From: Candidatus Hebobacterum abditum
GTDB lineage: Bacteria > Armatimonadota > Hebobacteria > Hebobacterales > Hebobacteraceae
NCBI GenBank assembly: GCA_029821875.1
Contig: JALGXW010000030.1
Location: 1 to 45,680 of the forward strand
DNA length: 45,680 bases
Reading direction: 5' to 3'
Made by a program: the position numbers and the translations under genes. A model generated the notes under the pieces. The model had not been told where the DNA came from. It saw only the letters and a program-made list of their open reading frames with translations, and searched no databases. Positions 37,649 to 45,491 of the stretch are shown here, piece by piece; the first letter of the stretch is position 1, and each line of letters begins with the position of its first letter.

Positions 37649-38407
37649 CTAGCCGGCCAGGCCGTCTTTCTCGCGGGCGCGGCGCTCGGCTCGCTCGATG
37701 AGCTTCACGACTCCTATCGTGCCTGCGTAGAGCGCGATCATCGGCGCGGCCGCGATGGTCAGGGTGATGGGGTCCCACGTTGGCGTGATGACAGCGGCGA
37801 GGACGAAGATGGCGATGACGGCCTCCCGCCATCTCCTTATAAGCATCCCGGAGTCCACTATCCCGATCTTGGCTAGCAGCACGATGACGATGGGGAGCTG
37901 GAAGCCCAGGCCGAAGGCAAGGTAGAACTTCAGCAGCAGCAGGATCGTATCGTTGAGCGTCAGCAAGGCCGCCGTGTCGGGTGGGATGAAGCGAAGAAGA
38001 GCCTTCACCGCAGGTCCGGTTATGAAGTAGCCCATCGTCACGCCTGCGATGAACAGGAGGATCGCCACGGGGATAAGCGGGCCGGCCGCCCGACGTTCGC
38101 TGCGCAGGAGGCCGGGCGCGACGAAGGCCCAGACCTCGTACATGATCAGGGGCAGTGCGATGATGACGCCTCCCACTAGGACGATCTCCAGCTTCACCAA
38201 CAGCCCTTCCAGGAGCATGCGCACCGTCAGCTCGCCGCCGTACTCCCGCAGGGGTTCCACGACGGGCCGCACCAGGAGGGTGTACAGCGGATCGAAGAAC
38301 ACCCACACGCCTATCATCGCGATCAGCGTGTAGATGATCGCGCGGATGAGCCGCGTCCGCAGCTCTCCCAGGTGGGTTACCAGATCGGCTCGGTCTTCGT
38401 CGCTCAA
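37649..38407 (-). CDS. tatC: Sec-independent protein translocase subunit TatC
   Basis: The 252-residue membrane protein has the TatC N-terminal motif HLGELRTRLIRA (residues 12-23) and six hydrophobic segments. MYEVWAFVAPGLLRSERR (about 89-106) is the conserved first-loop region of the family. The C-terminal charged tail is usual. TatC binds the twin-arginine signal of folded exported proteins. The gene is divergent from a molybdenum-hydroxylase pair whose large subunit has such a signal. No tatA/tatB was found in this window. The ATG at 38407 is followed at once by acidic SDEDRADL. Confidence 0.93.
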   Translation of the reverse strand: MSDEDRADLVTHLGELRTRLIRAIIYTLIAMIGVWVFFDPLYTLLVRPVVEPLREYGGELTVRMLLEGLLVKLEIVLVGGVIIALPLIMYEVWAFVAPGLLRSERRAAGPLIPVAILLFIAGVTMGYFITGPAVKALLRFIPPDTAALLTLNDTILLLLKFYLAFGLGFQLPIVIVLLAKIGIVDSGMLIRRWREAVIAIFVLAAVITPTWDPITLTIAAAPMIALYAGTIGVVKLIERAERRAREKDGLAG

Positions 38408-38530: not shown

Positions 38531-39016
38531 ATGCTCGTGGCAGAGCCGACCGAGCCAATCATAGTCAGCGTGAACGGCACTGAACACCGACTCGAGGTGG
38601 CCGGATCGCGCAGCTTGCTCAGCGTGCTGCGCGCCGAACTGGGCCTGACGGGCGCGAAGTATGGCTGCGGCGAGGGGGAGTGCGGTGTCTGCACTGTGCT
38701 TCTGGAGGGGCGGCCCGTGCGGGCGTGCACGACGCCCATTTCCCATGCCCACGGTCGCGAGGTCGTCACCATCGAAGGACTGGCGGAGCAAGGGGAGCTC
38801 CACCCGGTGCAAGAGGCCTTCCTCGAGGCGCAGGCGTTTCAGTGTGGATATTGCACGCCCGGCATGATCATGGAAGCTGTGGCCCTCCTACGGCAGAAGC
38901 CCCGGCCCAGTGAGCTGGAGATCAGAGAGGCGATGTCGGGTCATCTCTGCCGCTGTGGCACCTACTCGCGGATAATCAAGGCCATTCACCTTGCGGCCGA
39001 CGCGATGCGGCGGTAG
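38531..39016 (+). CDS. [2Fe-2S] subunit of a xanthine-dehydrogenase-family (isoquinoline-1-oxidoreductase-like) enzyme
   Basis: The 161-residue protein has two [2Fe-2S] sites: a plant-type site with C46, C51, C54, C66 (KYGCGEGECGVCTVLLEG) and a C-terminal site with C105, C108, C140, C142 (QCGYCTPGM and GHLCRCGTYS). This is the small subunit of molybdenum hydroxylases; it passes electrons from the molybdenum centre. No FAD (medium) subunit gene adjoins it, so the enzyme is the two-subunit IorAB type, which usually passes electrons to a cytochrome or other membrane carrier. ATG at 38531 behind AGGCGGTGG. The large subunit starts 13 bp downstream. Confidence 0.93.
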   Translation: MLVAEPTEPIIVSVNGTEHRLEVAGSRSLLSVLRAELGLTGAKYGCGEGECGVCTVLLEGRPVRACTTPISHAHGREVVTIEGLAEQGELHPVQEAFLEAQAFQCGYCTPGMIMEAVALLRQKPRPSELEIREAMSGHLCRCGTYSRIIKAIHLAADAMRR

Positions 39017-39029
39017 GGCGGAGCTATCG

Positions 39030-41132
39030 ATGCGCTCTGGCGTGGCGAGTGGAAAGACCGGCACGGGCAGACTTGGGCTCACGCGGCGCGAGTTCCTCCG
39101 GGCAGCCGGTGGGCTCGTCGTTGCTGTCAGCCTGTGGCCGGAGAGGCCGGCCGTCGGCGCGGCCGCCGGCGAAGGGGATCGCGCGGGCTGGCTGCGGGTC
39201 GGCGAGGACGGGCGCGTTACGGTCTTCGCGCCGGTTCCCGAGGCGGGGCAGGCGCTTCGAACCGAACTCGCCCAGCTTGCCGCCGAGGAGCTGCGCCTCC
39301 CGATCTCCGCGCTTGAGGTCATCCTCGGTGATACCCATCGCGTGCCCCCCGATATAACGGTCTGCGCTGGCTCGGCGATCTCGACCCTCGGCCCCGAGGT
39401 CCGCCGGGCGGCGGCCGAGGCGCGGGAGGCGCTGGCGAAGGCCGCCGCAGAGCAGTGGCGTGTGCCGCCGGAGCAGGTTCAGTTGAGAGAGGGCCGCGCT
39501 CTGCTCATCTCCGATACGGATACGGCTGTCCCGATAGGGGACCTGGCTCAGCGCGCGGCCGAGATGAGGCGGGCGGGGGGGCCTGCCGCGCTTACGCCCC
39601 CTGCGGAGCACCGAGTCGTCGGCAAGTCGGTACCCAGCTTAGACGGCCCCGCCTATGTCACAGGGGAGGCGAGGTACGCAGCAGACCTGCGTCCGCCTGG
39701 GCTCGCCTACGGAAAGGTATTGCGGCCCCCCTATCTGGGCGGGCGACTGCTTTCCTTGCAGACCCGAGCGGCTGCGGCGCAGCCGGGCGTCATCGCGGTG
39801 GTGGAGGAAGATGATCTCGTCGGCGTCGTGGCGACGCGCCCGGACGTGGCCGAACGGGCCGCCCTCAGCCTCCGGGCGACGTGGGGGCAGGGGTTGGCTG
39901 TGTCGGGAGCTTCTCTCTACGAGGACCTGAGAGCCTCCGCCGAGCTCGAGGCAGAGCTTGCCTCGCAGGGCGACGTCGAGGCTGCGCTCGCCGGCGCGCG
40001 GCAGGGCTACAGCGCGAGCTACCGGACGCCTTTCGTGGCCCACGCGCCGATGGAGCCGCACGCCGCTCTGGCGGCCCCCGAGGGCGAGCGGGTGGTCGTC
40101 CACGCGAGCACGCAGCGGCCCTTCCAGCACCAGGCGGCGGTGGCCGGCGCTCTGGGCATTCCGGCGGCGCGGGTGAGAGTCATCTGTCCGGCGGTGGGCG
40201 GCGCCTTCGGCGGGAAGGACTCACCCGAGGTATCGGTCCAGGCGGCGCGGCTGGCGCGGGCCGTGGGGCGGCCGGTTCTCGTCGCGCAGAGCCGAGAGGA
40301 GGAGCTAGGCTGGAACTACTTCCGTCCGGCGGCCGTGATCGACGTGCGCTGTGGGGTGGCGGGCGATGGCCGCATCGCGGCCTGGGACTGCGATGTGCTG
40401 AACTGCGGCTCCCGGGGTGCCCTCGCCCCGTACCGCTTTGAGAACCACCGCGTACGAGTCCACCGCTGCCGCGCGCCCCTGCCGCAGGGCCCTTGGCGGG
40501 GGATGGGCGGGGCCGCCAATGCCTTCGCTCGCGAGGTGCACCTCGACTACGTGGCGAGCCAGCTCGGCACCGATCCCATCGGGTTGCGCCTGCGTCACCT
40601 GGAGGAAGCTCCGCGGCTGGCGCGGGTGGTGTGCCTGGCCGCGGAACGCCACGGGTGGCGCGACCGGCGGCCCCCAACGGGATTGGGGAGTGGGTTTGCC
40701 TGCGCCGTCGACGCGGGGAGCTTCGCTGCGGTTATCGCCGATGTGGAGGTGGAGCGCACCAGCGGGCATGTCCGCGTTCGGCGCGTATTCGTCGTGCAGG
40801 ACAGCGGACTGGTCATCAACCCGGACAACATGCGGAGCCAGATCGAGGGGGCCGTGGTGATGGGCCTGGGATTCACGCTTCGCGAGGCCGTGCGGTACGA
40901 GCAGGGGCGGATCCTGACCCGCAGCTTCGCCTCCTACCCAATACCGACATTCTACGGCGCTCCGGCCATCGACATAGTGTTGGACTCGGATAGGCATGAT
41001 CTCCCGCGGGGCGGCGGCACGGCCGCGCTCTGCGCGATCGCGCCGGCGGTGGCGAACGCGATCTTCGACGCGGTCGGCAAGCGCCTGCGGGAGCTTCCGC
41101 TGTCGCCCGCCCGGGTCCGTTCGGCGCCTTAG
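39030..41132 (+). CDS. molybdopterin-binding large subunit (IorB-like) with Tat signal; catalytic Glu replaced
   Basis: The 700-residue protein has a twin-arginine signal, LTRREFLRAAGGLVVAVS (RR 19-20), so it is probably exported folded with its cofactor. Typical features: VTVFAPVPEAGQALRTEL, the GGAFGGK loop (from residue 390), QGPWRGMGGAANAF near 486, and PAVANAIFDAVGKRL near the end. In related enzymes the segment before PAxANA reads G-x-G-E-x-G, with an essential Glu. Here it reads RGGGTAALCAIAPAVANA, with Thr664 where I place the Glu. The enzyme may be inactive, act by another mechanism, or use another acid. GGAG precedes the ATG. Follows the Fe-S subunit by 13 bp; tatC is next door. Confidence 0.88.
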   Translation: MRSGVASGKTGTGRLGLTRREFLRAAGGLVVAVSLWPERPAVGAAAGEGDRAGWLRVGEDGRVTVFAPVPEAGQALRTELAQLAAEELRLPISALEVILGDTHRVPPDITVCAGSAISTLGPEVRRAAAEAREALAKAAAEQWRVPPEQVQLREGRALLISDTDTAVPIGDLAQRAAEMRRAGGPAALTPPAEHRVVGKSVPSLDGPAYVTGEARYAADLRPPGLAYGKVLRPPYLGGRLLSLQTRAAAAQPGVIAVVEEDDLVGVVATRPDVAERAALSLRATWGQGLAVSGASLYEDLRASAELEAELASQGDVEAALAGARQGYSASYRTPFVAHAPMEPHAALAAPEGERVVVHASTQRPFQHQAAVAGALGIPAARVRVICPAVGGAFGGKDSPEVSVQAARLARAVGRPVLVAQSREEELGWNYFRPAAVIDVRCGVAGDGRIAAWDCDVLNCGSRGALAPYRFENHRVRVHRCRAPLPQGPWRGMGGAANAFAREVHLDYVASQLGTDPIGLRLRHLEEAPRLARVVCLAAERHGWRDRRPPTGLGSGFACAVDAGSFAAVIADVEVERTSGHVRVRRVFVVQDSGLVINPDNMRSQIEGAVVMGLGFTLREAVRYEQGRILTRSFASYPIPTFYGAPAIDIVLDSDRHDLPRGGGTAALCAIAPAVANAIFDAVGKRLRELPLSPARVRSAP

Positions 41133-44214: not shown

Positions 44215-44778
44215 CTACTTCTTCGCCGCCGCGTATCGCTTGGCGACGTCGTCCCAGTTGACGAGGTGATCCATGAACGCCTGCGTCCACTCGGGTCGCT
44301 TGTTCTGGTACTTCAAGTAGTAGGCGTGCTCCCACACGTCGCAGACGAAGATCGGGATCTTGCCCCAGACGGCCAGGTTCTCGTGCTTCTCCGCCTGGAG
44401 CACACCGATCATGCCGGTCTCCGGGCAGCGCAGGAGGAGGCCCCAACCGGAGCCCTCTACGGCATTGGTGGTGGCGAGGAAGAGCCCCTTGAAGGCCTCG
44501 AAGCTGCCGAAGGTCTTCTTGATGGCGTCGGCCAGCTCTCCGGTTGGCTCGCCGCCACCGCCCGGCTTCATGTTGGCCCAGAAGATGCTGTGCAGAACGT
44601 GGCCGGAGCCGTGGAAGGCCAGCGCCTTCGCGGCCGCCTTCGCGCCGGCGAAGTCGCCGCCTGCCATAGGCTGTGCTTCTCCTTTCGGGCGATGGTCTGC
44701 TCGGCCGAGTCTCGCCAGCGAGCCGGAAACTGCTGTCACGCCGGCCAGCCTGAGGAATCCTCGGCGGTCGAGCTTCAC
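44215..44778 (-). CDS. Tat-type Fe/Mn superoxide dismutase lacking the N-terminal helical hairpin
   Basis: The 187-residue protein starts with a twin-arginine signal, DRRGFLRLAGVTAVSG, then goes within about 25 residues to the middle of the SOD fold (AFHGSGHVLHSIFWANMKPG). It retains the ligands H63, D147 and H151 (VCDVWEHAYYLKYQN) and the typical WGKIPI. The N-terminal hairpin that normally carries Y-x-L-P-x-L-x-Y and the H-H-x-x-H segment, with the first metal-ligand His and the gateway Tyr, is missing. The protein has three of the four ligands. An in-frame internal deletion, a specialised form, or an assembly error could explain it. The start is GTG. Divergent from the DJ-1 gene. Confidence 0.85.
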   Translation of the reverse strand: MKLDRRGFLRLAGVTAVSGSLARLGRADHRPKGEAQPMAGGDFAGAKAAAKALAFHGSGHVLHSIFWANMKPGGGGEPTGELADAIKKTFGSFEAFKGLFLATTNAVEGSGWGLLLRCPETGMIGVLQAEKHENLAVWGKIPIFVCDVWEHAYYLKYQNKRPEWTQAFMDHLVNWDDVAKRYAAAKK

Positions 44779-44934
44779 AGGCCCTGAATCCTCTCTTGAA
44801 GTGCTGTCCGGGCGAGCGGACGTCCAACCTCTTCCAAGCTGCCCTTTGCCCTTCCTCGCGCTTGACGCGACAAGGCTCGCAAGATTGTGCGACTACTCGG
44901 ACAGGCGGGAAGGTGGCGTGGGGCGCGTGTCACA

Positions 44935-44972: not shown

Positions 44973-45491
44973 ATGGAACTGGATGGCAAGCGGATAGCGG
45001 TCCTCGCCGAGGACACCTATGAAGAGATGGAGCTGTGGTACCCGAAGATCCGGCTCACGGAGGCCGGGGCCGAGGTGCATGTCGTCGGTCCCGAGGCCGG
45101 GGCAACCTACACGAGTAAGCACGGCCTGCCGGTGACGGCCGATGTGGCCGCCGACGACATCGCAGCCGGAGAATACGACGCAGTAGTGATCCCGGGCGGC
45201 TACTCGCCGGACCGGATGAGGCGGCACGAGTCGATGGTGAAGTTCGTGCGGGAGATGAGCGACCAGGGGAAGGTGGTGGCCTTCATCTGCCACGCAGGCT
45301 GGCTGCCCATCTCGGCCGGCATCCTGAAGGGGAAGCGGGCGACCTCCTTCTTCTCCATTAAGGACGATATGGTCAACGCGGGCGCGAAGTGGGAGGACGC
45401 CGAGGTGGTCGTGGACGGCAACCTCATCTCCTCCCGCACACCCGATGACCTGCCCGCGTTTCTGAGGGCGATCATCGAGAAGCTGTCCTGA
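44973..45491 (+). CDS. DJ-1/PfpI-family protein
   Basis: The 172-residue protein is of usual PfpI length. It has the cysteine elbow VVAFICHAGWLPIS with C106 and H107 and an N-terminal acidic AEDTYEEME (E17/E18), the pair usual in this class. IPGGYSPDRMRR at about 73-84 is the family's substrate-loop motif. Members include protease, deglycase and chaperone-like proteins; the reaction is disputed in the family and unknown here. GGAGG is about eight bases before the ATG at 44973, which starts MELDGKRIAVLAED. Upstream in-frame sequence to 44796 is not protein-like. Confidence 0.9.
   Translation: MELDGKRIAVLAEDTYEEMELWYPKIRLTEAGAEVHVVGPEAGATYTSKHGLPVTADVAADDIAAGEYDAVVIPGGYSPDRMRRHESMVKFVREMSDQGKVVAFICHAGWLPISAGILKGKRATSFFSIKDDMVNAGAKWEDAEVVVDGNLISSRTPDDLPAFLRAIIEKLS

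Follow-up and report, generated by a model that had tools for sequence, protein, structure and literature searches.

A truncated Fe/Mn superoxide dismutase gene in Candidatus Hebobacterum abditum, probably a recent deletion allele, and a predicted second translation start in its relatives

Fe/Mn superoxide dismutases (SODs) are defined here by a set of four metal ligands, namely His, His, Asp and His. The SOD fold also occurs in non-enzymatic roles, for instance in SOD-like mitochondrial ribosomal proteins. The Mn/Fe SOD of Aeropyrum pernix and human MnSOD both possess a complete hairpin and all four ligands, unlike the gene described here, and neither of them is known to carry a Tat signal. 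These two enzymes are the best solved relatives of this gene by sequence and by fold (PDB 3ak1-3ak3 for the Aeropyrum enzyme). Export of an SOD is documented in cyanobacteria, where Tat-type or membrane-targeted MnSODs have been described, including Chroococcidiopsis SodA2.1 and Anabaena PCC 7120 MnSOD (PMC8193680). In Anabaena, one gene is reported to give rise to soluble MnSOD both in the cytosol and in the periplasm/lumen (Raghavan et al. 2013, cited in PMC8193680). Bacterial genes within genes that rely on internal in-frame starts have been described, for example the Rpn nucleases (PMC10327210).

The gene under study lies in a 45,680-nucleotide stretch of Candidatus Hebobacterum abditum (contig JALGXW010000030.1), called the window hereafter, and its features are collected in Table 1. 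The closest relatives of its 187-aa open reading frame are Fe/Mn SODs. In a profile search, residues 78-181 matched Sod_Fe_C (PF02777) over the full profile length with 112.4 bits for a cut-off of 20.9, and the D-x-W-E-H-A-Y-Y signature is present as DVWEHAYY at residues 147-154. Sod_Fe_N (PF00081) was matched over profile positions 54-82 of 82 only, with 23.4 bits, which is below its 27-bit cut-off.

Table 1. Features of the truncated SOD gene and of its surroundings in the window.
Feature	Position	Strand	Remark
Truncated Fe/Mn SOD gene, long signal-bearing frame	44215..44778	(-)	GTG start, 187 aa
AGAGAGGA, Shine-Dalgarno-like, 10 nt 5' of the GTG start	44789..44796	(-)	sequence
Tat-type signal DRRGFLRLAG..., residues 1-25	44704..44778	(-)	models below curated cut-offs
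Internal Shine-Dalgarno AAAGGAG within the linker	44679..44685	(-)	
Internal ATG (Met38), predicted start of the cytosolic form	44665..44667	(-)	position at which signal-less relatives start
Deletion junction, 153 bp (51 codons, congener residues 41-91) gone	44658..44659	(-)	
Leftover N-terminal domain: helix 2 with ligand H63 (codon 44590-44592)	44566..44658	(-)	
Complete Sod_Fe_C, ligands D147 (44338-44340) and H151 (44326-44328)	44236..44547	(-)	
TatC (no second one found in the genome)	37742..38374	(-)	
Divergent neighbour, PfpI/DJ-1-like (named by sequence appearance)	44973..45491	(+)	syntenic in congener

The only congener compared is Candidatus Hebobacteria MAG M3-38_Bin_440 from the Armatimonadota, in which an intact SOD gene of 238 aa (L003 on G001:C382, the same as L034, JALGXV010000166.1) occupies the same locus and shares its neighbours, its signal and both start sites with the window copy. 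The DNA of window and congener is ~93% identical on either side of one clean gap, which shows that the truncation is not due to chance, and the two proteins are ~96% identical over the part that they share. The difference between the two genes is exactly 153 bp, in frame, close to the 150 bp or so that had been estimated in a first interpretation of the window made from its letters alone (the sequence-only reading). The explanation favoured here, with reasonable confidence, is that the gene is the orthologue of the congener's SOD and the sole SOD detected in its genome, and that it has undergone a recent in-frame loss-of-function deletion.

As a first step, the N-terminal loop was lost together with helix 1 in this recent deletion, as the alignment shows. 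The 51 residues that are present in the congener and gone from the window carry the first His ligand, the second-shell His and the active-site Tyr. The corresponding columns (His26-type ligand, His30-type and Tyr34-type) read H/H/Y in all 29 aligned relatives and are absent from the window SOD, in which three of the four metal ligands (H63, D147 and H151) are present, each at a ligand column of the alignment. The sequence-only reading had placed at 44215-44778 an SOD that lacks the first metal ligand and keeps the other three, and it was right in both respects. It had also taken the whole hairpin to be absent, which holds for the loop and helix 1 but not for helix 2, found entire in sequence (GDFAGAKAAAKALAFHGSGHVLHSIFW). 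Since helix 2 and the three ligands are retained, only one arm of the hairpin was lost.

The products are predicted to be inactive because the first His ligand, the second-shell His and the active-site Tyr are all gone. In a second step, from the established chemistry of Fe/Mn SODs, the predicted exported and cytosolic products would thus neither bind the metal nor dismutate superoxide. Three fates had been proposed for this protein at the outset. Loss of activity appears to be the best supported of them by the sequence, whereas nothing supports the use of another ligand, helix 1 having also borne the second-shell His and the Tyr. The AlphaFold model of the truncated SOD retains the alpha/beta core, and its best fold match is the Aeropyrum Mn/Fe SOD (131 columns aligned, 1.0 A). 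This core, the conservation of the frame and of both start sites, the low dN/dS and the known non-enzymatic roles of the SOD fold would all suit a retained pseudoenzyme or three-ligand metal protein, with a structural, metal-binding or regulatory role, that no longer dismutates superoxide. Such a protein is nevertheless improbable, as the case comes from a single genome with no independent second one among the matches listed, and a recent deletion accounts equally well for the low dN/dS. Moreover, the start of helix 2 (residues 41-60) loses AlphaFold confidence without helix 1, with a pLDDT of ~61 compared with 92-95 in the congener.

Over the shared SOD codons, window and congener differ by a dN of 0.012 and a dS of 0.160 (dN/dS ~0.07); the values for the divergent neighbour gene are 0.029 and 0.291. 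With three outgroups for polarising, the L-to-F change at residue 144 was the only replacement that could clearly be assigned to the window branch. The intact remainder had already been taken as an argument against long decay, and the low dN/dS agrees with it. On the other hand, the kept frame and a remainder without sign of relaxed selection are a counterpoint to loss of function, and both would also be expected of a short protein that remains in use. Either a young deletion or a remainder still in use would fit the data. Of these two readings the young loss is favoured, since catalysis in Fe/Mn SODs requires the deleted part and since the case stands alone.

The segment missing from the window is kept in the 29 aligned relatives and, among the ~130 other Armatimonadota SOD matches listed, in all except contig-edge fragments. 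Among the phylum matches listed (291 genomes), all others start at query residue 47 or before. A family of SODs devoid of helix 1 was rejected, since genome contigs, the class and the matches listed from the 291 phylum genomes yielded no second instance of the deletion; no related copies were found in viral contigs. The alignment against full-length Tat-type SODs that the sequence-only reading had proposed was run, and it points to a deletion peculiar to this genome and not to a new family.

That the deletion occurs in one assembled genome only (95% complete, 3.7% contamination), all others being intact, and that this assembly is of the metagenome type with 103 contigs, would also be expected of an assembly or binning artefact or of a minority strain variant. 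The true gene would then be full length, the contig having joined two points 153 bp apart. This is considered rather unlikely, though it carries more weight than the other alternatives. The reading frame is exactly preserved, although chance would give this in one case out of three, and the missing piece was not left on another contig. In addition, the two breakpoints in the congener have no 6-mer in common, so k-mer assemblers had no reason to collapse the site. Together with the absence of the missing piece from the rest of the assembly, this makes a repeat-driven misassembly unlikely, and a repeat-driven collapse was rejected for want of a shared 6-mer.

No second Fe/Mn SOD was found in the genome, which contains no other Sod_Fe_N domain above the cut-off. 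Neither a Cu/Zn SOD nor a superoxide reductase was detected in the genome, and the Ni-SOD model gave no match there, but likewise none in any control genome. The single weak Sod_Fe_N match, of 13.6 bits (C102), lies in an open reading frame that does not resemble an SOD. The missing peptide is absent elsewhere in the assembly (a search run without positive control), as is the DNA of the missing 153-bp segment. As this segment is nowhere else in the genome, no second chain supplies helix 1. Pairing with a second chain had been among the fates first proposed, and a split SOD, in which a separate chain provided helix 1 and its ligand, would have its four ligands restored. No support was found for it; being already largely refuted by the absence of peptide and DNA and by the nature of the C102 frame, it was rejected and is regarded as highly improbable.

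The class comprises dwellers of hypoxic or anoxic sediments that are likely anaerobes (PMC10290634). COX1 was not detected in the genome. SOD is patchy within the family, an SOD match being present in four of the six family-mates searched and none in G003 (91% complete) and G005 (87% complete). As a third step of the recent loss preferred here, the loss of SOD would probably be tolerated in this lineage, because it appears anaerobic and because SOD is patchy in the family. The lack of COX1, the anaerobic class and the two family-mates without SOD match make a loss without great cost plausible. Finally, the allele would likely be a pseudogene at an early stage, as yet without further damage.

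The first 40 residues of the window SOD are 93% identical in the congener, and the codons of the signal are under purifying selection (dN 0.012, dS 0.171), which argues that the signal is coding. The two Tat signal models gave 14.1 bits for a cut-off of 22.7 and 14.4 bits for a cut-off of 16.7, and the DRRGFLRLAG motif is accompanied by a hydrophobic stretch. The Tat-type signal of the sequence-only reading is plausible, but both model scores remain below the curated cut-offs. The genome has a TatC, whose gene is in the window at a distance of ~6 kb from that of the SOD and shares its strand. Another open reading frame of the window, 38991-41132 (+), resembles by eye from its translation the large subunit of a molybdenum hydroxylase (xanthine dehydrogenase/CoxL type) and bears its own twin-arginine motif (LTRREFLRAAGG).

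Downstream of the signal and ahead of the SOD domain, AAAGGAG is followed by an ATG at the point where signal-less relatives begin. An internal Met near the domain start was found in 24 of the 35 Armatimonadota SODs that count as signal-bearing under a simple rule based on motif and hydrophobicity, which may have misassigned a few of them. The carriers include L003, L004, L005, L006, L008, L011, L013, L019, L023, L026, L028, L031, L075, L077, L080, L098, L100, L101, L106, L109 and L112, among others. The 11 without it belong to other subgroups. The mean anti-Shine-Dalgarno energy in the 20 nt before the internal Met is -10.0 kcal/mol (n=24), compared with -9.4 kcal/mol at the genuine starts of signal-less relatives (n=40) and ~-4 in the gene background. 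The excess persists under synonymous shuffling with amino acids fixed (Fisher P ~3e-5, an inexact value as the sequences are related).

The simplest reading of this conserved internal start is that the gene may possess two starts, giving an exported and a cytosolic SOD. On balance, it seems likely from these sequence features that signal-bearing Armatimonadota SODs are commonly two-start genes and that the deletion in the window disables both forms at once; located just 3' of the internal start, it would affect both predicted products. The signal-bearing SODs that have no internal Met near the domain start are L027, L029, L030, L079, L082, L107, L108, L113, L121, L126 and L130. These would be export-only genes, a natural control set for a two-start model. 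A limited literature search, which is weak evidence of absence, found no description of a bacterial SOD with two translation starts.

The truncated allele is an annotation warning, as its C-terminal domain lets it pass as a "superoxide dismutase", and it is possibly a snapshot of early gene loss. Its biological novelty is modest, for it consists of a single deletion seen in a single genome and may be an artefact. The two-start architecture matters more and is the part worth testing. If the inner start is used, one gene would serve two compartments through alternative translation starts, and annotation pipelines that choose one start per gene would miss the second form.

Compared with the solved enzymes, the three ligands of the window SOD occupy positions equivalent to those of the Aeropyrum SOD and human MnSOD, and it shares with the Aeropyrum SOD a His at the water-binding Gln/His position. 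In the same way as the cyanobacterial MnSODs, it has a putative export signal ahead of the SOD domain. However, the Anabaena forms arise via N-terminal processing, whereas in the window two translation starts are predicted and helix 1 is missing. The predicted SOD layout resembles that of Rpn in that a second, shorter protein would come from an internal start in the same frame. The short form of Rpn is an inhibitor, while that of the SOD would be the same enzyme minus its export signal.
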